A DNA stretch of 64,000 nt from Siphonodentalium dalli (taxonomy: Eukaryota; Mollusca; Scaphopoda; Gadilida; Siphonodentaliidae): positions 170,138,664 to 170,202,663 of the forward strand of contig CP136066.1 of NCBI GenBank assembly GCA_032622095.1, written 5' to 3'. The position numbers and the translations under genes were made by a program. Below, piece after piece: positions 3,801-50,448 of this stretch. Numbering within the stretch: the stretch's first letter is position 1; every line of letters starts with the position of its first letter. The notes under the pieces are model-generated. The model did not search any database. It was given only the letters and a program-made list of their open reading frames with translations, and had not been told where the DNA came from.

Positions 3801-4644
3801 TCTCTTCTATATATTTTGAGAACTCCTTGTATTCGAGAGATAGCCCACACCCTCCGGACCTCAATGATATGATCGTGAATGAGTATTGATATACCCCACT
3901 AAACTTTGACAAACACCAGTAATGGTGTGTAGATCATTTACATATCTCTCCTATATATTTTGATACAATCTATCTAATTTACATATCTCTCTTATATATT
4001 TATGTTTGTGTGTGTGTTGTACTTCATACAAATCTACGATTCTCGACCGATCGGGACGAAACTTGGTACGTGTGTGTAGTTTGACCAGGCGGTGGTCGTT
4101 GTCGTATTGGCGAGCCCGTGCGACGCCCGTGCAGCGCATGCGCAGACGAGATCTCGGAAACGGGTGGAGCTATCGACTTGAAATTTGCTATGTGAATGTA
4201 TCTTGCGCCGGGTACAAATTTTATCGGGTCGCCGAGCCCGTGCGACGCCCGTGCAGCGCATGCGCAGACGAGATCTCGGAAACGGGTGGAGCTATCGACT
4301 TGAAATTTGCTATGAGAATGTATTTTGCGCCGGGTACAAATTTTATCGGTTCGCCGAGCCCGTGCGACGCCCGTGCAGCGCATGCGCAGACGAGATCTCG
4401 GAAACGGGTGGAGCTATCGACTTGAAATTTGGCATGTGAATGTATCTTGCCCCGGGTACAAATTATATCGGGTCGCCGAGCCCGTGCGACGCCAGCTTCG
4501 CGCATGCGCAGACCAGATCTCGGAAACTTGTGGAGCTACCGGGTACTAATTTTCTTATGGAAACGCGTGGAGCTAAAAAATAAAAAAATATATATAAAAA
4601 TGTCATGTTTCGGACAAGCCGCCGGTGGCGGGCTAACCTGCTAG
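3801..4644 (+). mobile_element. Helitron-like element H4, possibly two nested copies
   Basis: A 5' end TCTCTTCTATATATTTTGAG is at 3801. Further 5'-like ends occur near 3946 and 3985 (TCTCTCCTATATATTTTG and a variant), so at least two copies are nested. Core units of about 122 bp run from 4090 to 4530; here CCCGTGCAGCGCATGCGC replaces the usual CCAGCTTCGCGCATGCGC. The 3' end is GGCGGGCTAACCTG and CTAG at 4641-4644. Confidence 0.65.
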
Positions 4645-5766
4645 TACTATATATTTTGAGACTTCGTATATATGTGTGTGTGTGTGTGTGTACTTCATAG
4701 AATCCAAAACGCGTGTACAGCTTGAGCTCAAACTTCCTATGTAAGTGTCAAATACCACCGACACGACCGTGGTCGCGGTTTAGAAAAGCTCAGAGCACCC
4801 GTTCTCCAATCTCAAATCACCACAAAGGCACGGCGTGGGTTAATCAAGTCATTATTTAATGAGCGTTTGTTTTTGACGCATCTCTATAAAGAGCGTCTGT
4901 TTGCCATTCAACGTTATTTGCATCTGCAGAGAGATATACGGAACATACATTAAATTTAAAAAACATTTGTTTCTGACCAACCCTGCGAGCACGGATGGCG
5001 CGCTTTGTTTTTACAGTATATAGTTATATACCGAAATCATCCCAGATAATCACGAATATAGCATCAGATTTCTCCCCAGATATACCCTTATAAAGCTACT
5101 GGAATCTGCCAATCTACGGGAAATTCCAGGGAATGCCGATTGAGCTCAAACCTGCTACCCACGGGAAGTGTCATATATATGAGTGTGTCCTTTATAGACT
5201 CGAACCGATTGAGCTCAAACTTGCTAAATAAGAAAATAGCCCCCAAGCCGTAAATATCAACAACAACGATATTACTAAATACACGTTTTCGGCAATGTGA
5301 GAGTTTTCGGGGAGCCGTGATGCCAACAACAACGACCCGAAGCCCTGAATGCCAACAACAGATTCAATGCAATGTTATCTATTATGCAGAGATATTTCAC
5401 GACATTACGACGGGTACGGCAGACTCAAAATATTATGCAGACAGATTTCCCGACGGGAAGCGTTTGTTTTAAATTCAATGCAATGTTATCGTAGAGAGAT
5501 TTCACGAAACAAAGAATGCGTTGTCTGTCGTTCCTAGGAAGGGGGGATTTCTACGGGTAAATTTTTCCGCCAGAAACAAAAAAATTTATTAAAACAATTC
5601 ACAATTTAATTAAAACAATTTAAAATTAAAAAAAATTAACAATAAAAAAACAATTCAGAAACAAAATATATTAAATTTAAAAAACATTAAATTCATATTC
5701 AAAAATGTCATGTTTCTGAAACAAAGCCATGGTACGAATGCCGCCAGTGGCGGGCTAACCTGCTAG
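4645..5766 (+). mobile_element. Helitron-like element H5
   Basis: It starts TACTATATATTTTGAGAC immediately after the H4 CTAG, without the leading TC. The body has CGCGTGTACAG, AGAGCACCC, GGCACGGCG and ATTATGCAGA segments shared with H3, and no 122-bp core. It ends GCCGCCAGTGGCGGGC, TAACCTG and CTAG at 5763-5766. Confidence 0.65.
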
Positions 5767-6086: not shown

Positions 6087-6288
6087 GCTCGTAAAGCTTC
6101 AACATATAACAAGGATGTATAATAAACCCACGAGATATGTGTTCGATATTTTTTTCATATATCTGAATACATTAATCAATGCGTCATTAGTCATGTGATA
6201 TGTAGCGGCGCAGGTCTGTGAACAGGCACATCGTTGTGGGTTCTGATTCAGGCTGGACCAACGCTCTCCGTACTTTGTGCATTCAGTG
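6087..6288 (+). promoter_or_regulatory. Conserved 5' region of PAN-FReD gene A
   Basis: About 200 bp upstream of the ATG is nearly the same as the corresponding stretch of copy B (44783-44983). Shared features are AAGCTTCAACATATA, GATGTATAATAAAC, GAATACAT.AATCAATGCG and TAGCGGCGCAGGTCTGTG. The TATAATAA at about 6118 could be a TATA box, and the part after TAGCGGCGCAGG is probably 5' UTR. No transcription start can be fixed from sequence alone. Confidence 0.45.
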
Positions 6289-6588
6289 ATGGAAGTTGTC
6301 GTGTACTCACTGATCATAGCAGTCTGTCTCCACCTCGTCCGCGGTATCCGGACTGGAGATTTTATCACAATCAAAGGGAAAAGGGAGAGCAATCTGAACA
6401 TGTCCAGCTCAAGTGTGGCGTGTACCAGGAGTAGAATCGAGTGCGCCGATTGGTGTCTTAAGAATCCGTGGTGCGTCATGGCAACTTATATGAAAAACGG
6501 CGATCAAAATGGACTGAAATGTTTTCTATCGTCGGAAAACGATGGGTTGCTAGAGGACGATGACGGATCAATGGTTATCAAGCTGAAG
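6289..6588 (+). CDS. PAN-FReD gene A, exon 1: signal peptide + PAN domain
   Basis: These are the first 100 codons of a secreted two-domain protein. Residues 1-19 (MEVVVYSLIIAVCLHLVRG) are a hydrophobic signal peptide. Residues 20-100 form a PAN/apple-type module with Cys45, 52, 56, 62 and 78 in the pattern CTRSRIECADWCLKNPWC...KCF. PAN modules bind protein or carbohydrate. The ATG at 6289 was chosen over an upstream GTG because it gives the best signal peptide and is shared with copy B. The exon ends AAG|GTGAGA in phase 0. Position 87 is Leu where copy B and the decayed minus-strand copy have Cys, so the mature domain has an odd number of cysteines. It differs from copy B at 21 of 300 bases, 14 of them amino-acid changing. 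It joins in frame to the microexon at 12552 and the FReD exon at 38451. Partner exons are inferred from phase and homology, not from transcripts. Confidence 0.85.
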
Positions 6589-6599
6589 GTGAGATTATA

Positions 6600-6835
6600 T
6601 TTTCGGTTCAGCGTTTTGTGAGGCGTGGCTACAAATTCCTAAATGGTGCCCATTCTGAGGTGCATATAGATGTAGGTTTCCTTATTCGACAGCCCGACTA
6701 CATTATACATAATTAAAGATATAATAAGTGTTCAGACTTCCAGTTACAACAACATAAAATAACATTTTAACATCACTTTCTGCTTTATTCTGTTGACAAA
6801 ATGTTGAACACCTAATATCACATACGTGTATATAT
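6600..6835 (+). repeat. Intron 1 start conserved with copy B
   Basis: The stretch TTCCAGTTAC..AACAACATAAA, CATCACTTTC and AAAATGTTGAACACCTA aligns to 45290-45535 downstream of the copy B exon. The homology then breaks, and gene A gains about 5 kb of repeats that B lacks. Confidence 0.65.
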
Positions 6836-13559: not shown

Positions 13560-15985
13560 CATGGTCAACCAATCAGAATATACGACAAACAAAAAGCATT
13601 TCAACAAATATAGTGCTAGTAAATTGCAAACGAGGTTGAGACAATTTTTAGTGATGCTGTCAACACAACCTTTGGTCAGCGACCCATTACGCATAGTTCT
13701 CAAAAAGGCACAAAGCCCTGGTTTAATAATGCATGTAAGATAGCTCGAAACCGATACAACATTGTACGGAAAACTCATTCACAAAACTCAACGGCAGAAA
13801 ATAAGCGGCTAATGCAAGAAGAAAGTAAGACATACATGCGTAAACAGGAAGCGGAACACACGAATAAATTATCAGATAAAATTAAAAAGGCAAACTCTAA
13901 TAATCCAAAGGATTTCTGGAATCTTGTACGCACGGAGGGCATTACTCCCCCGGCGGTTGATATCGATGATATGTATAATTTCATGAAAAGTAATCAAAAA
14001 AAGGACGATCACGACCCATTTTCACATCATGTTTTCCAAGAGGATAATGATATTCTTGACATGCCCATTACACAGGACGAAATACTTCGAGCAATATCGG
14101 TTTTAAAAAACGGTCGTAGCAGCGGAATTGACAACATTCGTTATCATTGTATACCGAATGGATTAATTTGATTTTTAACACAGGCATAATTCCAGATGAG
14201 TGGTAGACAGAAATAGTTATACCAATTTATAAAAATAAAAGTGACAATACGTTACCAGAAAATCATAGACCTATTACAATCCTTAGCTGTCTGGGAAAAT
14301 TATTTACCAAAATAATTAATGCACGATTAACTGAATATTCAGAATCTATTGATCTTATCGACATCAATCAAGCAGGTTTTAGAAAAGGCTTCTCCACTAC
14401 GGATCATATACTAGCATTGCATTTCATAATTAGTATCTACAGAGAAGCCAATGTAAAGCTGTTTTGCACATTTGTTGACTTCAAACAGGCCTTTGACACC
14501 GTTTGGAGGAACGGTTTGTGGCAAAAAATGATTACTGCAGGTATTAATGGAAAGTGCTTTATACTTATTAAAACATGTATAACGAAGTAAAATCTAAGGT
14601 TAAAATCGGCGAATGTCTCTCAAATAGTTATCAAAGCTATTCTGGTGTTTTGCAAGGAGAAATTTATCTTCTTTCTTATTCTCACTCTACCTAAACGACC
14701 TTGAAAGTTTTTTATTGTCCAATAGAGTTCCAACTCTGAAATTAATTGAGAGTGACACATTAACAGAAGTTGGAATGTATATCAAGTTGTTAGTACTATT
14801 GTACGCAGATGACACAGTAATTTTGTGGAGACAGCCAAGGACATGCGTATAGCCCTGAAAGAATTCTCCGAATACTGTGATCTTTGGAAGCTCGCCGTCA
14901 ATGTTGACAAAACAAAATTAATGGTATTTGGCTGTAAAATAATCCCAAAATCACGAATATTTTTCAATGGCGAACTTTCACAAATTGTCCCTCAATTCAC
15001 ATATCTGGGTATTATTTTTACTAGGAATGGTTCTTTCTCAAAAGCCGTGAAGCAAAATATAGCAATAGGCAATCGGGCCATGTTTGGCCTACTGCATAAG
15101 ACGAAAGAACTAAATTTATCGATAGACATTCAAATAGAACTTTTTTCTAAGACTGTAAAACTATTATATGGATGTGAAGTCTGGGGTTATCAACACGTCG
15201 CAGATTTAGAAAAGATCCAATTAAAATTTCTCAAATATGTTTTAGGGTTAAAACCAAGCACACCAAGTATGATGGTATACGGAGAAACAGGAGGATATCC
15301 TTTAATTGTTGACATAAAATGTAGAATGTTAACAAACTGGGCTAATGTGGACAAACAAACCAGTTTAAACACGAAATTGACCCTAAGTCGGTTAAAAATA
15401 TCACACGACAAACTCTGGAAAATAAATTTCAAAACCAGTGGAGAAACGAGATTAACTCTATGAATAAGTGTCGAAATTATCGAATCATAAAATATAAATT
15501 CTCACAAGAAAAATATTTATCCGAACTCCACCAAAAACAAGCAGTTATTTTAGCTAAATTTAACCAAATGAGAAAGTGCACGCTGTGTGATAAGAGCGAA
15601 ATAGGGAATGAATATCACTACATAATGGACTCTAACAAATTGAACTCACTCCGAAGACGATTTTTACCCTTAAACTTGACAGAACAAAAAAATGTCCATT
15701 ATTTCAGAAATATAATGAACCCAACAAACAATGTATGCTTCTACAAGCTATGCGGATTCATCAAAAATCTTCGAAACTATTTTGGATCACCCCTGACCTT
15801 ATCAACCCCACCATCCCATTCGCACATTATGTGCGTATAGAATACGTTGCTATCATACCCATTTCTGTTGTTGTCGACTTTGAATATTGCACCAATGACA
15901 TACCATGCACTGTATAATTATAAATATGTCTCTTGTGTCACGTACTGTGATTTGAGCGAATAAACATTGAAACATTGAACATTGT
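13560..15985 (+). pseudogene. Decayed non-LTR retrotransposon (LINE)
   Basis: The left part matches the pre-RT region (KPWFNNACK..R, FWNLVR, ILRAISVLKNGRSSGIDNI). Reverse-transcriptase motifs follow in shifting frames from about 14160: PIYKNKSD..LPENHRPI, LGKLFTKIINARL, QAGFRKGFSTTDH, FVDFKQAFDTVWRN and YADDTVI. The post-RT part runs 14825-15463 (YLGIIFTRNGSFSKAVK, LLYGCEVWGY, MVYGETGGYPL) and 15460-15780 (CTLCDKSEIGNEYHYI). Stops and frameshifts break it at least at 14205, 14590, 14650-14830 and 15460. The 3' end is AATAAACATTGAAACATTGAAC, a short-repeat tail as in CR1/Jockey-like LINEs. There is no intact ORF, and it lies in intron 2 of gene A in the sense orientation. The clade is not certain. 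Confidence 0.85.
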
Positions 15986-34461: not shown

Positions 34462-34709
<248 letters not shown>

Positions 34710-34721
34710 CTATGTAGAGTA

Positions 34722-35405
34722 AGCATTAGGAGGACCATTGACCATCATTATGCAGACTGCGACATTATGCAGACGAAATCCGGTCTGCCTAATTTGTGTA
34801 TGCCAGTTACAACTAGTTAGCTTGCGCTTTAATTGTTAACACCTCTCCTTGTTCAACCGATTTAGGTTCTCTTTTGTCTATAAAATGATGGGATTGAAAA
34901 AATTGTTGTTAAGGGCATTTCCGCCCCGATAATTTTGAGACACGTATATTCGATCGATATATAGTTTCATCATTGTGCGGTCTTTTTTCAATCCTGAAAT
35001 TTGTACTCAATTTCGATGTATACACCAGATTTCTGGACGTTTTAATGACATTTGGCCTGTTATCTCCTTTTTTGCTACATCCTATACATAAAAAATGCAA
35101 AAACAGAAAAGTTGATTTTTTCGAGACCGCTGTGGATGTTTCGACTGAACAATGACGAAACTGTATATCGACAGAATATACATGTCTCAAAATTATCGGG
35201 GCTGAAATGGCCTTAACAAAAAAATTGTCAATCCCATCATTTCATAGACAGAAGACAACCTAAATCGGTTGAACAAGGAGAGATGTTAACAATTAAAGCA
35301 CCAGATAACTAGTTGTGACTGGTATGCAAAAAATAGGCAGACCGGATGTCGTCTGCATAATGTTGCAGTCCGCCTAATGATGGTCGATGGTCCTTCTAAC
35401 ATTAG
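34722..35405. repeat. Foldback element with about 245-bp arms
   Basis: The left arm (34722-34966) and right arm (35161-35405) are inverted and match well. Shared words include AGGACCAT.GACCATCATTA, ACATTATGCAGACGA, CCGGTCTGCCTA, CTTGTTCAACCGATTTAGGTT and AATTTTGAGACA. The spacer is about 195 bp. The repeated CTGCCTAAT.ATGG words also occur at 34570 and 36106. Confidence 0.75.
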
Positions 35406-36515: not shown

Positions 36516-38450
36516 ACATTATGATATTGTAACTAATCATGTTAGAATATTTACAGTATTGTGGTACATGTATTAACTACTACCAGTATACTAGTAGTAC
36601 TAGTATATCATAATATATATGCACATGATGGAAGATGGGGGGTAAGGACAATAACAATAGTTACAATACATTATTAACAAATATTGTTATTTGTAATTCA
36701 AAATGTCAAAAATAACATTGAATGATTGACACTGCTGATCGTGATATCAGCATTAAACAGCAACGATGCCTATGGTCAACAGCTTTGAATACTTAATCAA
36801 AGGCTATTCGTCGAGAAACTATTTAACAAGATTTATGACTTCGCGTGACATGACACAAATTCACACGGAAATATTTAACAATGTTTTAATTTTCACGTGG
36901 CTCAAAAGGAATGCGATGTAAATAAATATTGACATGGGTCATGGCTGGGTTCATACCCACTGACATCATAATTCATATCAATTTGGCTAACGCCATACTA
37001 TAATATTTTTAGGATGAAACACAGAATTATATAAAACATATAGTAAACACATACCATAATAATATGCCTAATCCATAATTATTGACATTAATATGCAGAT
37101 TCGAGTCATTAATTTACCGGCTCCAGCCTCCATTCCACTGTCTCAAGTCCTCGGTCATGTAGTACTGGGCCTACACATCCAGTCACAAATTCTCGAGAAA
37201 TTTGCAGCTAATCACAATTGAATAAACATTGATGTGTGAAAAGACCCACTAAAACCAAACATGCTTTTGAACAGGCGGTCCATTCCGATTCTACTCGAGA
37301 ATGCCTGTCCTCGCTTGAACTCAGAGGCATCGGGACGGAAATTTCACTTCACTTCAATAAGAACAGAACGTCCAAGAATTCCTGCAAGTCTTCACAGAAT
37401 ATCACGTGGAAACAACGCAAAAGATGCATACGTGTAACTACGATCGGACTATTAAAATCCCACCACAAAGTAAAACGCTACCGAGCCGAATTCATCTTCA
37501 AGCGAGACATGTCCGATTTGAACTTGAAGGGTCGTCTTGTTTGCGATGACGTCATTTCGCGAGTCATTTCCAACTTAACCCTTTTGCGTTCCAACGGCGT
37601 TTCAATTGGTTGAAATTGAAAAGTTATCAAGTTTGAGCTCCACCTGAATCTAGTTGCTATAATTGGCAGAAATACCTTAGCAGAACTACTTACATGTAGT
37701 TTTATCAATTATAACTCTAATTTTGTTAACGATATTGGATCAACATCATTATATGAAACTGTTTATGACGGTGTTATCCAAGCGTGTGCTTTCGTAATGA
37801 TTATAATTGTATTTTGCGATCAAATGTCTGTGCAGTTCAGCAGAAAGCAAGATCAGTTCAGTTCAGTTCAGCAGAAACGCATGTTTCCTGCGATTGCAGT
37901 ACACCCACAGGACGCGTAAACAAAAATCTCCATCAACTGTGGCATCAATTGTCAGCAGTATATATATGCAACCTGTTCGATGTCAATGTGTGGTAATGCG
38001 AAAATGCAATGTAATAGTGATTTAATGCAATTTAAAAAAGAGGTTCGGATCCGGATCCGGAAATAGGGAAAAACGATCCGGAATCCGGGTTAAAGATAGT
38101 TCCATCAAACGCCTCGAGACCTCCAATGGCATACTTATTATAACGACCATTTGTCATTAAATTGCACCATCGTCAAACCACATAGTGAACATACATACTG
38201 TGCCATCGCTATTTTAGTACGTATGTCTCCAATCATGTCAAATTAATGGACAGGCAGTACCCCATTCCGTTTCCGACCGTTGAATGAACACGATGTACCG
38301 ACAATGAGCTCCTGTGATAGATGTAATAACCATTATCCCCTTCCCCCTTACATTTCGGCAATTGTATTAAATTATTTATGCGGCGTAACCGACAGGGGTC
38401 GCTGATTTTTATTACTCGTGGAAATATATCATTTCATTTCTTTCTTTCAG
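36516..38450. other. End of intron 2, no exon recognised
   Basis: A 125-codon frame (37236-37613) is open in a somewhat more GC-rich stretch but shows no domain, signal peptide or splice signals, and its family is not recognised. GGATCCGG repeats occur at 38045-38090. The last bases, TTTCATTTCTTTCTTTCAG, are a strong acceptor for the FReD exon. Confidence 0.4.
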
Positions 38451-39097
38451 ACTGCAGAGATCTGCTGATGGCTGGCCACGACACCGATGGTGTATATACA
38501 ATCGCACCAGATGGCGCCACCGAAAAGAAGGTCGTCTGCGACATGACGACCGATGGCGGCGGTTGGACGGTTTTCCTGCAAAGACTTAACGGAGTAACAA
38601 ACTTCAGAAGGGTGTGGGCAGATTATGCGCAGGGGTTCGGAGATCCGGCGAACAGTGAAGATCACTGGCTAGGACTCGACACCATTCACATTCTAACTGA
38701 ATACCCTGCTGAAGTTTATGCGAAACTGAGAACGGCGGATGGAATATATTACTACGCCAAATATACAAGTTTCAGCGTGGCCGATAGCTCGAACAAGTAC
38801 AGACTCAGCGTTAGTGGATACAGTGGCACTGCGGGCGATTCGTTCACCTATCATAACGGGGTGCCATTTAGTACACACGACAATAACAATCAACCCGGTT
38901 CATGTCCATGGAATTGCGTTTCTCTTCACGGTACCGAAGGGGGTTGGTGGTTTGAATGTTGCCTCTGGGTTTGTTTAAGTGGTCCTTACCTCAACAGCAC
39001 TGCGAGCGGTCTGGCGGACCAAGGAATGTTGTGGATAACGGACCTTGGGCAAGAGAATTCACTCATGCACACCACATTGATGATTCGGCACAGTTAA
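38451..39097 (+). CDS. PAN-FReD gene A, exon 3: fibrinogen-related domain
   Basis: This encodes residues 108-322, a full fibrinogen C-terminal domain of usual length (about 215 aa). Order of landmarks: DCRDLLMAGH..DGVYTI, CDMTTDGGGWTVFLQR, FRRVWADYAQGFGDP, WLGLDTIHILT, YAKYTSFSVADSSNKYRL, GDSF.YHNG.PFSTHDNNN, CPWNC, EGGWWFECC, and the C-terminal SLMHTTLMIRHS before TAA. The exon follows TTTCTTTCTTTCAG and starts in phase 1. FReDs in invertebrate lectins such as ficolins, tachylectins and FREPs bind acetylated sugars using Ca2+. Here the calcium loop reads DNNNQ where DNDND is usual, so one acidic ligand is replaced by Asn. With the PAN exon and microexon it makes a secreted recognition protein, probably immune. 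No AATAAA was seen in the first 400 bp downstream. The FReD call is firm, and the link to the PAN exon is inferred. Confidence 0.93.
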
Positions 39098-44782: not shown

Positions 44783-44983
44783 AACGCAAAGCTTCAACAT
44801 ATAGAAACGATGTATAATAAACACACAGTATATTTGTTCGATATTCTTTTCATGTATCTGAATACATGAATCAATGCGTCATATGCCATGTGATATATAG
44901 CGGCGCAGGTCTGTGAACAGGCACATCGTTGTGGGTTCTGATTCATGCTGGATCAACGCTCTCCGTACTTTGTGCATTCAGTG
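44783..44983 (+). promoter_or_regulatory. Conserved 5' region of PAN-FReD gene B
   Basis: It aligns closely to 6087-6288 of gene A (AAGCTTCAACATATA, GATGTATAATAAAC, ATATAGCGGCGCAGGTCTG). Homology begins near 44785. Further upstream the two genes are unrelated, so this marks the edge of the duplication and the likely promoter/5' UTR. Confidence 0.45.
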
Positions 44984-45283
44984 ATGGAAGTTGTCGTGTT
45001 CTCATTGATCATAGCAGTCTATCTCCACCTCGTCCGCGGTATGCGGACTGGAGATTTTATCATAATCAAAGGGAAAAGAGAAAGCAATCTGAACATGTCC
45101 AGCTCAAATGTGGCATGTACCCGGAGTAGAATCGAGTGCGCCGATTGGTGTCTTAAGAATCCGTGGTGCGCCATGGCAACTTATATGAAAAACGGCGATC
45201 AAAATGGACTGAAATGTTTTATATCGTCAAAAAACCATGGGTGTCTGGAGGACGATGCCGGATCAGTGGTTATCAAGATGAAG
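44984..45283 (+). CDS. PAN-FReD gene B, exon 1: signal peptide + PAN domain
   Basis: This is the paralogue of 6289-6588, with the same 100-codon length and the same AAG|GTGAGC phase-0 donor. The signal peptide MEVVVFSLIIAVYLHLVRG lacks the Cys of copy A. The mature PAN part has six cysteines (45, 52, 56, 62, 78, 87), an even set as expected for disulphides. DNA identity to A is 93% (21 differences). Thirteen of the 100 residues differ, most of them in the last quarter. An in-frame upstream ATG (44945) would add 13 residues before the signal peptide and is not shared by A, so 44984 is preferred. The next exon is the 13-nt microexon at 50449. The FReD exon lies outside the window. Confidence 0.85.
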
Positions 45284-45289
45284 GTGAGC

Positions 45290-45535
45290 TTATATTTTCA
45301 GTTCAGCGTTTTGTGGAGCGCGGCTATAAATAAATAAATGGTGCCCACTCTGAGGTACATGTAGATGTAGATGTCCTTATTCGACTTTCCAATTACATTA
45401 TACATGCATAACTAAAGATACAATAAGTGTTCAGACTTCCAGTTACATGCAACAACATAAAAATCACATTTTCATCACTTTCGGCTTTTTTCTGTTAACA
45501 AAATGTTGAACACCTATATATATATATATATGTTT
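45290..45535 (+). repeat. Intron 1 start conserved with copy A
   Basis: Aligned to 6600-6835 (AAGTGTTCAGACTTCCAGTTAC, ACAAAATGTTGAACACCTA). It ends at a short (TA)n where the two copies diverge. Confidence 0.6.
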
Positions 45536-45970
45536 AGTATAGCATGTGCACAGTAATATATATGGTCCAAGATTGATATAAGACATGTCTATAGAAAATA
45601 ATTAATTTAATTAAAATGTCTATAGGCCTTTCGTGGCATTGCCACTTTTCAATAGACGACAATAATGATTATGACGTCATAGCGTCAAGGGAGATAACTC
45701 AATTTAGAGAGAACGTCATTTCCTGAGTGCATTAAGTTTACACTTGATGACTTGAAATGTTTCATATAAAAGTCTTCTCTTTGCTGTCTGAGTATTTTGC
45801 TGTCGGACTGTAGTTTTTGAAACGGGAAAATCGAAAAGTTCCTACCCCCGCATCCATCCAAGTGTGCACTGAGCGGAATTTTTCGATATTCTGGTTGTTT
45901 AATTTGCTGCTTGTGAATTCTCGTTCTTTCTCGCAGTGTATTGCCCGTTTCTCCGACGTAACTTTCTGAA
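45536..45970. other. Gene B intron 1, B-specific stretch
   Basis: There is no counterpart in gene A, where 5 kb of other repeats sits. No gene was recognised. Confidence 0.35.
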
Positions 45971-45974
45971 CATC

Positions 45975-46424
45975 CATAATATGGATGATAACTTGGACAA
46001 CTTTAACAGAATTTCTCGATAGTTGCATGGTACATAGTTTACAGTTCATAAAACATAGGTCAGGTTCAATGATTTTTATGATTTATGCGCCTTTGTTCGA
46101 CTTATAAATCATAATATTTGTCTAGTCCAGATGATAATATGAGCACACTTCAAAGGGATCTCTTGATATTTAGTGTACTTGAGAACACACAGGTCATCGT
46201 CAAGCGGAATCAATTTTTTTACCAGATTTGACATCTTTGTTCTTAAAAGTCAACGCCTTTTTAAGCGACCTTTTTATTCTCAAAACTGTATTTGAGCTCC
46301 ACCTTGCAAATACATAAATATAAGACACGGGAAACCATAATAATGCATGCAAACTTAAAATAGTTGCCCTAAATTATCAAATGGGTGATTGAAAGTTATT
46401 TTATGTGAATCTTTGCAAGCTTAA
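45975..46424 (-). repeat. 145-bp repeat family, gene B copy
   Basis: Nearly identical to 12000-12439 of gene A (GTACATAGTTTACAGTTC, AAACATAGGTCAGGTTC, ATTTATGCGCCTTTGTT, TTTTTAAGCGACC). It ends exactly at TTAA (46421-46424), where the insertion begins. Confidence 0.7.
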
Positions 46425-47409
46425 AGTCATTAGCTTCACTCCCGGTGGGTATATATTTCATGTCAGACAGAACTGTATCCGATATACCATAAGAAAGGTC
46501 ATAAAAAACTAGAAATAAAACCCCCAAGGTGCATATTATTGATGCGGTATTCGCCCCGTATTAAATTGTTGAAAACTGCGGTCAGAGTAAGAAATCTTCT
46601 CAGATACAACCACATTTTCGGCGCGAATCATCGTTGAGGTCATGGAATTATATTCGGAAGAAATCGGAACCGCCCGAAACGACGATCGGCTGGCACGCAC
46701 GGTTGACAGAACAGCCAAAACAATAGCCGGCATGTCGATAACCGAAAGTAGATTCAACAAAACACAAACTAGATAATGTCTTGATTTTTGCATGGATATC
46801 TCATGTTTTCTAATTGAAATATCGAGAATTAATTGGCAACTAACAAAGTGTACACACTGTGTATATGTTATATATGGATTGTTTGCAAATTTAGGCGTGA
46901 ATTGGTATTCACAGCATGCAAAATACGATTGGCACACATCCGAACTGATCCAGGTGGTCATGCTTCTCATCGATTGAAAATAAACAAATCGGGGAATTCC
47001 TGCGTTTCTTATCAAACGTCAACATATTTGGTCGAATTTAAGATGAAGTTATCTGCAATGGCATTATTGACTTCTGTAAATGGAAATTATTAGCAATATT
47101 TGAAATGCAGAGAGTGAACCACCGATCGATCTATAATTTATTATTACAATAGCCCAATCGGGCTGAACTAGATCGATTGGTCTTCCTATATAGTGGTCGC
47201 TGCTGTAAGAGAGGGAACTCTAAATTTCTTAAATATTAAAATTTGTTTGTTTTCAGATTTGTACAAGTTTATAATGAATAATACCAGTAAAAAATTATAC
47301 CGTTCTCTTTCATTAGTTTCAAAATAAATGAGAATTCTTTTTAATTGGTAGAAACAGCTGGTCGAAAGAACAATTTAGAGTACTCCCCTTATCCCAGATT
47401 CACTTTATA

Positions 47410-49525
47410 GTAGCTAATTACACTTAAGCGTAAATTATTTACGCTTAAGCCTAATTAATTACACTTAAGCGTAAATTATTTACGCTTAAGCATAATTAAC
47501 TTACGATAAGCGTAATACATTTGAATTACGTTTAAGTGTAATTGGGTTCATCAGCTATCTCACCTCTATGGGAGGAAGCCAAATTAACATTTAATATATA
47601 ATTGAGCTAAAGCCCCCCCCCCCCCCCCAATCAAGGAATCTCTAATTACACTTAAGTGCAACAAGAATATTTCTTATTGCGCTTAAGCGCAATAAGAATA
47701 TTCCTTATTGCGCTTAAGTGCAATATGATATTCCTTGTTGTGCTTAAGTGCAATAAGATATTCCTTATTTTGCTAAGCGCAATTAGATATTTCCTTATTG
47801 AACTTAATCGCAATTATATCTTCCCTTATTATATCGTTTAAGCTCAATTACGCTTAAACTCTATTATTTATTAAATGTTAATTTGGCTCCCCCATATACC
47901 TCCTGTATATTGGTATAACCTGATGTAGGTTACTGGCATTAGTAATGCGGTTGCATCCATTTCAGCGTGAGGGGAGTTCAATGAGAGTGTATATGAATTA
48001 CGTTTAAGCGTACTTCAGTTACGCTTAAGCGCGGAACTCATTTACACTTAAGCATAATTAAAATGAATAATGCTTAAGCAAATACCTATTTGAACTCCAA
48101 CTGATTTCCTCTGTCTGAATAATTGAGTCCATCTCATCCGGCGTATATGGGGGAGTCTAAACCGATGTTTGATTGATGTCTTATTGCCAGAGTAAATTTG
48201 AGTTTAGAGGGAATCGCATGGGAGACAGCCTTTTCAAATATATTATTTATTAGTGTAAATCAATTGCGCTGAAATGCAAAAAATATGTGTCTAATAATAT
48301 ATTTGCGCTTTAGCATAAAATTGCCATAAATGTGATCTATTTTATGGGAGGCCCTTTTCACATTTATTATTTATTTACGCTTAAGCGCAAATAACCTCTA
48401 TCATTTGCGCTTAAGCAAATAGATCATATTTGCGCTTAAGCGCAAATCATTTGCACTTAAGCGCAAATAAATATCAATATGCATTGATCCCCCCTGAATT
48501 AATTTTACACGGCACAGGCCTAAACACATCACTAAAGTTGATATAGCCCCACCATATGAAGGAAACAATCCCCCAGAAACCCCAAGATCTGTTTTATGAC
48601 CATGGAATGGAAATGATATAGATCTGTGTAGGATATGTCTCTTTTATAAAATATACTATATCTCTGGGATGGAGACACAAATTCTCGGGGACAGGGATGC
48701 TGATATTATGAAATTAGGGGTTTTCCCCTACTTCAAGTCAATGAGCACACCATATGAGGGAAGCAAACCCCAGTAACCCCTAATTCCCTATTTATGGCCA
48801 TGGAAATGGTATATATCTGTGCAGGAGATAATAAAATATAAATGAGCTCTGATAGTGAGGCACCAATTATTGGGACACCAGGGACAGAGATGCTGATATG
48901 CATATGCATTTCTTTTTTCAACTTTCCAGTATGTACGGGGCTACTACTATATATATATGGGCCCATGATAATATAATATGAGATGGACTCAATCATCACA
49001 TCAGAGGGATGTAAGGGAGTGTTAGGTAGACACATATTTGCGCTTAAGCGCAAATGATTTACACTTAAGCACACATATTTGCGCTTAAGCGCAAATAAAT
49101 TATAAATGTGAAAAGGGTCTCCCATACTATTTCCGCTAAAGCGCATATGATTTGGATTTAAGTATAAATGATTTTAATCTTCAGTGCAAATGATTTACAC
49201 TTAAGCGTAAATGATTTGCAATTAAGCAGAATCAGAATAAATGTGAAAACGGCTTCTCGTATAATCGCTTAAGCATAATTCATTTACGATTAAGTGTAAT
49301 TAATCTATCAATGAAAATGAATGACCAGTGAGCTTAAGCGTAAATCAATTACGCTTAAGCACACTTAAATCAATTACGCTTAAGCACACTAGTCATAATT
49401 CTATTACTCATTGGAGTAATCATTTATCTACATCATACGGTTAAGCGTTAGTGAATTACGCTTTATATGTGTGCATTACACCTGAGGCTGAGTGTAATAC
49501 ATTACGCTTACGTGTAATTCACTTA
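47410..49525. repeat. Array of CTTAAG-centred palindromes
   Basis: About 23 exact CTTAAG hexamers, plus many one-base variants, occur in 2.1 kb, against roughly one expected by chance at this base composition. Most sit in longer palindromes: TTACGCTTAAGCGTAA (47410-47545), TTGCGCTTAAGCGCAA (47640-47870) and TTTGCGCTTAAGCGCAAA (48375-48470 and 49035-49100). Neighbouring sites share the same variant, so blocks look locally homogenised. Spacers are also palindromic in places (GCGCAATAAG..CTTATTGCGC). Longer inverted pairs such as GAGTCCATCTCAT (48126) versus ATGAGATGGACTC (48982) join the blocks. No coding frame was recognised. Confidence 0.9.
48535..48850 (+). repeat. Direct duplicate inside the palindrome array
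   Basis: CACCATATGA.GGAA.CAA.CCCC, then CCATGGAA.TGG, AT.GATCTGTG.AGGA occurs at about 48548-48635 and again at 48747-48830. It interrupts the CTTAAG blocks. Confidence 0.55.
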
Positions 49526-50448
49526 TACGCTAAAGTGCAATTAGCTAATACATATGAAAAAGGCCTTCCATTATAGTTATCATCTATCAGAATGAATAGT
49601 GCTAACTAAAGCTTGACAACAGAATTTGCCCTTAAAAATATTTCATGGCCAATGAGCTAACAAATGGTCAGTATTGGCATATTGAATACCAATTATTGTA
49701 CTATTGTACAGGTATAATGTAATTAAACAGTTTTGAGTTACAAAAGTAAGACAACTCTTTCTGCACAGTACTGTGCTTGCGGCCAGATTGATGTAAAAAT
49801 TCGGTCAATGCGCTTACTATTTTCTATAAATAGTAACATTTTGGAATTATTACCTCTCGATCACTGTTCGATTATAATCTTTGCCACTAACTCGACCAAT
49901 GTTCTTCCGTTTGTGATTTCACGCAACAATTCACTTTCTATTCCTTCCCTGTCGAATTGACTACCGATTGCGATGTCAATTAGTTTTTCGCTTTAATATT
50001 CTGATGTGACGCTATTCCAGCGAACGGTCATCCTCCATAGAAGCCATTTCTGAGAAGTGAGAACGAAACCCGATTCAATCCCAATCGAGTCGGAAGTGCT
50101 CGGGCATTTCCGTGACTGCACAAGACAACGATTCGGTTTGTTTTTTCGTGTTATTATGGCGAGATTAATCGGGACGATTGATGAAATAGAAATAGTTAGC
50201 CGAATGGCCGTATAATGTGTACAAACGGACTTCAGGATGGGGGATTTCGTGTATCTGAGTTATTTTATTCACTCTTCCCACAGAATGACGCAGGGAACTC
50301 AATTGTGAGGTTCAATTTACGTTTCACATCACTTTAACCAATTATTTTGTTCTCAATAAGTTCACAAATAATTGTCCACGAACCCTGATTAAACCGCTTA
50401 ATGGCGCTTTTTGAAAATTATTAAATTAAATTCGATTCTATATTTCAG

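Follow-up and report, generated by a model that had tools for sequence, protein, structure and literature searches.

The window (the whole 64,000-nt stretch of Siphonodentalium dalli DNA analysed here) contains a dense array of CTTAAG-centred palindromes at positions 47410-49525, within a series of repeats whose coordinates are collected in Table 1. Exactly 23 CTTAAG sites lie in this segment, in agreement with a preliminary description of the locus, against a mean of 0.64 and a maximum of 5 in 500 first-order Markov simulations; the entire window holds 35 against 12.6 expected. The tandem periods are ~20-21, 25, and 30-31 bp, and no copy of the array was detected elsewhere within the window at E 1e-3. 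The preliminary description overstated the perfection of the units in placing most of them in 14-18-bp palindromes. Only four of the 23 sites lie within a perfect palindrome of at least 14 bp (28, 20, 20, and 22 bp), and at 13 of them seven or all eight of the 8 position pairs across 16 bp are complementary. The array is thus far above chance, and its palindromes in the window are mostly imperfect. The background is itself enriched: positions 1-46000 contain 138 12-bp palindromes versus 17.3 in simulations, a large part of this excess stemming from a TA tract at 34.6 kb, and 86 remain in 45.7 kb once 34501-34800 is set aside, still above the simulated mean. Palindrome density alone is therefore a weaker sign than palindromes repeated with a 20-23-bp period. 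An Rfam mir-965 match at 47421-47492 on the minus strand (44.7 bits, cut-off 43) falls on a pair of CTTAAG palindrome units and is probably a chance hairpin match. Elsewhere, the window carries a reverse transcriptase fragment (14207-14590, RVT_1, E 1.5e-13), an open frame with a strong Fibrinogen_C match (38330-39097, E 3e-54), near-identical short frames at 6247-6621 and 44942-45337 with weak, below-cut-off PAN-domain matches (E 0.0006 and 0.001), and two separate arrays at 2443-2895 and 4111-4538 that seem to share one 122-bp tandem unit.

Table 1. Features of the window and of the related loci discussed in the text.
Feature	Position or locus	Strand	Remarks
Analysed window	C6:170138664-170202663		2.23-Gb genome, 9 contigs
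Outer carrier repeat, ~3.9 kb	46421..50337	.	TTAA at 46421-46424 and 50334-50337; inner termini AGTCATTAGC..CATCACT
Palindrome block, oldest element	47415..47545	.	TTAC..GTAA type, 20-21 bp spacing
E1	47567..47896	.	carries 31-bp-spaced palindromes; from inverted arms and junction alignment
E1 palindrome block	47642..47866	.	TTGC..GCAA type, ~31 bp spacing, near-palindromic spacer
Palindrome block between E1 and E3	47994..48080	.	
E3	48217..49263	.	tentative; worn, surrounds E2; ATCGC on either side, degraded ends; from sequence and junction alignment
E2	48343..49126	.	terminal inverted repeats; 6-bp duplication CTATTT at 48337-48342 and 49127-49132
E2 left palindrome block	48371..48470	.	TTTGC..GCAAA type
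E2 right palindrome block	49034..49097	.	
E3 right palindrome block	49139..49229	.	ownership by position, tentative
Right palindrome block, oldest element	49259..49551	.	tentative
6-bp duplication	L017 (C1)		GCCCTC
6-bp duplication	L018 (C1)		CATTTG
6-bp duplications, two elements	L020 (C1)		CAAAGC and TCATTG
6-bp duplication	L023 (C1)		TATTTC
C2 sister element, 6.7 kb	L035 3588 to L036 1262, C2:106821587-106828261		GAAGTC on both sides
rva_4-linked array	L042		CCTGATATATCAGG; palindromic, 21-22 bp spacing, just upstream of gene
rva_4-linked array	L044		TCCTAATTAGGA; palindromic
rva_4-linked array	L045		GGCGTTTAAACGCC; palindromic
rva_4-linked array	L046		CTCGTGGCCACGAG; palindromic
rva_4-linked array	L051		TCGAGATCTCGA; palindromic
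rva_4-linked arrays	L048, L055		TCTCCCTGGGAGA; palindromic arms around 1-base centre

The region consists of non-autonomous cut-and-paste transposons stacked by insertion of one into another; they have ends TATGGGAGG..CCTCCCATA and make 6-bp duplications, and the CTTAAG palindromes form the subterminal portion of their terminal inverted repeats. The longest clear inverted arms in the window measure ~50 nt. In E2, 48343-48393 pairs with 49076-49126 at 94% complementarity, and nine of the 11 aligned copies show the CTATTT duplication exactly, L013 and L031 having a one-base mismatch. The right end of the window copy of E2 reads TCTCCCATA; other copies retain both 9-bp ends intact. The arms of E1 (47567-47613 and 47852-47898) are 83% complementary, and its flanks, CACCTC at 47561-47566 and TACCTC at 47897-47902, agree at five of six bases. 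The first and last palindrome blocks seem to belong to the oldest element.

The whole stack is carried by a TTAA-flanked outer repeat that multiplied as a unit. Both ends of this repeat are present in the window, on C2 (L035/L036), and in L013, its right end also in L027, L028, L030, L031, and L032, and its left end in the diverged L023, each copy having different flanks. All nine E2 relatives fetched (L026-L034) align with the outer repeat beyond E2; these are the best-scoring relatives among the 40 of 3,680 first-look candidates that were scored, a sampling that leaves room for E2 placements outside the outer repeat as well. Kolobok elements make TTAA duplications and have 5'-RR..YY-3' termini, according to the available portion of PMC9587614. 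The outer repeat shares both properties, and its TTAA duplications and 5'-AG..CT-3' ends fit Kolobok rather than piggyBac. It differs from Kolobok in that its termini are weakly inverted (AGTCAT / AGTGAT) and no transposase was seen, with no Pfam match in the open frames at 46536-47018 and 48733-49173, two of its longer ones. An outer-repeat relative contains ~205-bp tandem repeats (L023, 2561-3200), two of which include the TATGGGAGGCC motif, and the C2 sister element encloses a copy of the outer repeat, a reversal of the nesting order. Beside the outer repeat, window 45685-46002 on the minus strand matches a GIY-YIG nuclease (E 1.6e-5) and could be a Penelope-like element.

Genome-wide, the 16-bp palindrome TTGCGCTTAAGCGCAA occurs in 10,339 exact copies, a count for which the preliminary description had called, and the terminal motif TATGGGAGGCCNNNTTCACATTTA in 6,392 (3,246 + 3,146), with reversed-pattern controls for the two at 0 each. 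By the abundance of this terminal motif, the repeat, for which the preliminary description had found no fitting family, is a common one; on abundance, this outcome goes against that description, which had named a common, already classified repeat as its refutation. Viral contigs contain no exact TTTGCGCTTAAGCGCAAA. On C1, elements of 1.2-1.6 kb around the palindromes are bounded by the same ends and by exact 6-bp duplications. Such duplications flank seven of the eight independent insertions in which both 9-bp ends are intact, a count of elements with both ends found that leaves one-ended cases out. The eighth insertion, L022, lacks a duplication and shares its flanks with the two L020 elements, which makes recombination its probable origin. 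Among the 100 matches listed, neighbouring terminal motifs separated by under 10 kb form 25 convergent, 3 divergent, and 7 same-strand pairs. Likewise, among the 50 palindrome sites listed, an exact terminal motif within 400 bp points inward at 23, versus a random mean of 0.05, and away at none; the other 27 have no exact motif within that distance, which decayed ends would explain. Two terminal-motif pairs, at C1:31119699 and C1:33652549, span just 90 bp end to end and are nearly bare hairpins, whereas pairs at C1:39188737, C1:19341194, and C1:16413861 extend over 3.6, 4.4, and 7.7 kb.

The CTTAAG elements are mostly 0.5-1.6 kb long, with no open frame of note in those read. They are nested MITEs, an ordinary kind of element: short and non-coding, with inverted ends, duplications, high copy number, and repeated sites near both ends. 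They differ from MITEs at large in that these sites are palindromes in phased arrays and that the elements are nested and carried by another repeat. Foldback elements such as Galileo and Tetris, a class marked by very long terminal inverted repeats, similarly have tandem repeats within them. These, however, belong to other superfamilies, and their repeats measure ~140 bp in Galileo of D. willistoni and 220 bp in Tetris, compared with 20-30 bp for the CTTAAG palindromes. Searches of the open-licence literature on CTTAAG palindromes, palindromic ends of transposons, and MITEs carrying subterminal palindromes returned nothing recognised as the same repeat, including in the accessible parts of PMC8268682, PMC4168063, and PMC4079207.

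The C2 sister element bears on the significance of the palindrome centre. Its palindromes, TTGCGCTGAAGCGCAA and TTGCGCTTCAGCGCAA, keep the arms TTGCGCT and AGCGCAA, with the central TA changed to GA or TC in most units. The TTAA centre, to which the preliminary description had drawn attention as a transposon target, is weakened as the point of the palindromes by these GA/TC centres and does not explain them, the duplication of the sister element being GAAGTC; that the outer element does have TTAA duplications is a coincidence. In L010 (~4700-4725), another repeat, also present in L040, seems to stop where an array begins, at the TTAA in its first palindrome, and palindrome arrays may serve as landing sites for TTAA-specific elements.

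The preliminary description also proposed that the two arms of each unit change together and that variants are homogenised by block. In genome-wide exact counts, the TTGC..GCAA (G/G) and TTAC..GTAA (A/A) forms number 10,339 and 1,477, respectively, and hybrids with mixed arms 2,803 (1,376 + 1,427) versus ~4,624 if the arms were independent (F ~0.39). Correlations were computed over 219 units in 19 stretches: the array in the window and the loci L005-L024, of which 18 of 20 were used and L013 and L015 omitted as copies. At the G/A position, the arms of one unit correlate with phi 0.34 (0.38 in units with a near neighbour), compared with 0.25 for facing arms and 0.35 for left arms of neighbouring units; at the C/T position, phi falls from 0.23 across all units to 0.01 where a near neighbour is present. 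Because the correlation within units is about that between neighbours, block homogeneity is the main cause. Joint change of the arms is thus real but moderate, block homogenisation accounts for most of it, and the check for compensatory change gives no support to stem selection beyond block homogeneity. Neighbour spacings in 245 units from 21 stretches concentrate at 20-21 bp (62), 25-26 bp (26), and 30-31 bp (36), with 5 at 22-24 bp and 8 at 27-29 bp, although these classes rest on few families, so shared descent could produce them too.

Arrays of similar layout adjoin transposase genes in the same genome. The Pfam rva_4 domain, an integrase-like core, has at least 126 genome matches, from 150 of 241 candidates scored. 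All four aligned rva_4 sequences have the catalytic residues in both R-x-D-x-G and NQRIE, and three have the first aspartate, the fourth lacking that region. Upstream of the gene, arrays of ~20-23-bp period occur at 10 of the 18 rva_4 loci examined, seven of them palindromic with six different sequences; the other three (L038, L043, and L050) are non-palindromic, with the start alone in view. None was found in the stretches read at L037/L041, L039, L040, L047, L049, L052, L053, and L054, some of which are multi-exon genes or 181-201-bp probes, so these misses say little. Exact 12-bp palindromes number 34, 25, 26, 26, and 8 in L042, L044, L045, L046, and L051 versus simulated means of 1.7, 0.7, 1.7, 0.1, and 1.1, and 2 each in L048 and L055 versus 0.1. 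Control windows came from the window and L005-L024, stretches chosen for their CTTAAG sites and hence non-random; an 18-24-bp period at 50% match appeared in 1 of 426 600-bp windows, without five palindromes there, and the period was seen in 8 of 1,300 200-bp windows, with palindromes as well in one, the TA tract.

The rva_4-linked arrays are transposon ends, in inverted pairs for the three types examined. Among the matches listed, orientation switches within 20 kb have one sense in 12 of 12 cases for the L042 type, 21 of 21 for L045, and 16 of 17 for L046; single-orientation or unpaired loci make up 3 of 15, 13 of 34, and some of 28, respectively. One set of rva_4 matches (C1:234697771-234698668) sits within an L046-type array pair 18 kb apart. 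At the inner edge of L042-type arrays, the beginning of the L042 frame is matched at C1:24054845-24055120 and C1:257307492-257307767, over residues 1-84 at 52% identity, with stops. Because the array itself, more than 700 bp long in L042, supplies the first ~18 of these residues and the frame has its first Met at residue 49, the evidence for the gene comes down to ~36 residues of these matches. Intact frames of up to 229 aa that match only residues ~53-133 of the L042 frame occur at C3:144148377, C8:72941441, C4:129067245, and other sites; this segment is N-terminal and possibly a helix-turn-helix, and the frames are perhaps first exons or DNA-binding-only proteins. A 294-aa rva_4 family was not counted as TTAA-flanked, since TTAA insertions of later date may account for its two apparent borders.

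The CTTAAG elements share the layout of the rva_4-linked arrays with another palindrome. Their ends are consistent with the IS3EU superfamily, in whose complete families, according to excerpts from PMC10045372, TA..TA termini are universal and 6-bp duplications usual, and fungal members of which end in TAYGG..CCRTA in the available text of PMC12730594. Like IS3EU / GingerRoot (same two excerpted sources), the CTTAAG elements have TA..TA termini, in their case TATGG..CCATA, and 6-bp duplications; TATGGGAGG..CCTCCCATA is found in eight element pairs, and the duplication is exact in the proportion given above. They differ in that the CTTAAG family has no linked transposase and in that palindrome-array ends are absent from those parts of the IS3EU descriptions. 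The open-licence literature searched yielded nothing for IS3EU with 'subterminal', and its matching passages for IS3EU with 'palindrom' contained no end arrays. No rva_4 gene was found between CTTAAG arrays in L005-L024, L037-L042, the C2 element, or window 46001-50400: tblastn with four rva_4 proteins gave nothing better than E 0.16 against L005-L024 and window 46001-50400, or E 0.025 against the C2 element, and an autonomous partner was not found in L037-L042. The identification of rva_4 with the IS3EU transposase is a supposition, and the attachment of the CTTAAG family to rva_4, suggested by analogy, is the weak step in the argument.

The reading that we consider probable is that of nested non-autonomous transposons mobilised in trans by an IS3EU / rva_4-type transposase, with the palindromes as candidate sites for its dimers. 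The enzyme would most likely be of the integrase-like DDE type. Each palindrome would bind a symmetric dimer of the transposase DNA-binding domain, half-sites TTGCGCT and AGCGCAA flanking a variable 2-bp centre that may act as a spacer. Spacings of 20-21, 25-26, and 30-31 bp approximate 2, 2.5, and 3 helical turns and may reflect phasing in half-turn steps, by which a row of several dimers could assemble and draw the two ends together. Duplication of units within families, together with retention of symmetry in a symmetrically bound site, might keep the arms alike by block. The rva_4-linked arrays suggest, in addition, that binding arrays are specific to each transposase family. Additional transposase binding sites in the terminal inverted repeats of Galileo, cited in the accessible part of PMC4079207, provide a precedent. 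Against this mechanism stand the absence of arrays from the stretches read at 8 of 18 rva_4 loci and their non-palindromic sequence in 3 of 10. More tentatively, and with our judgement tilted slightly against it, the rva_4 / IS3EU-like class may as a whole build its ends from palindromes about two helical turns apart, each family having swapped its palindrome along with its transposase, and the window would then preserve the remains of one such family.

The same nested elements might instead depend on the transposase of another superfamily, their likeness to the rva_4 arrays being convergence. An autonomous CTTAAG copy was not found in the loci searched, foldback structures are suggested to have evolved independently across lineages (excerpts from PMC4079207), and 6-bp duplications also occur in Polinton and in some hAT elements (available passages of PMC10045372 and PMC12730594, respectively). 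Because TATGG..CCATA ends combined with 6-bp duplications fit IS3EU, and because the identical layout adjoins rva_4 genes in this very genome, we regard such convergence as unlikely. Hardly more probable, at about one chance in four, is that the palindromes at the transposon ends serve a host factor, a promoter, or single-strand hairpins, or are by-products of replication slippage. The position of the rva_4-linked arrays close upstream of the coding part could be that of a promoter, and three arrays are non-palindromic; nevertheless, arrays stand at both ends in inverted orientation, even where no gene was matched, and their layout stays constant while the sequence varies by family.

The preliminary description suggested, among other readings, a satellite that grows through inverted amplification and a cluster of host binding sites of NK2 type; we have rejected both as highly improbable. 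Short tandem arrays do exist and (T/C)AAGTG half-sites are present in some units, but the palindromes are scattered over the genome in thousands of copies associated with terminal inverted repeats and duplications, and TTGCGCTTAAGCGCAA, by far the commonest of three 16-mers counted, has no AAGTG half-site. The long head-to-tail arrays free of transposon-end bounds that characterise a satellite were not found; the blocks are instead parts of elements that have terminal inverted repeats and are flanked by 6-bp duplications. What may survive of the binding-site proposal is a cluster of sites for a transposase, at transposon ends, rather than for an NK2 homeodomain.

What looked like an odd local array is, then, the way in which a very abundant transposon family builds its ends. 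Such ends, when nested and carried along by another repeat, can be mistaken for satellite DNA, for a regulatory cluster, or for a microRNA hairpin. Within one genome, several transposons with one type of transposase display different palindromes in a common layout. Should each of these transposases recognise its own palindrome, they would provide matched pairs from which to learn how the specificity of a DNA-recognition domain changes; if the palindrome-array class proves true, many dimers would load in register, and the families would form a natural series of matched sites and recognition domains.
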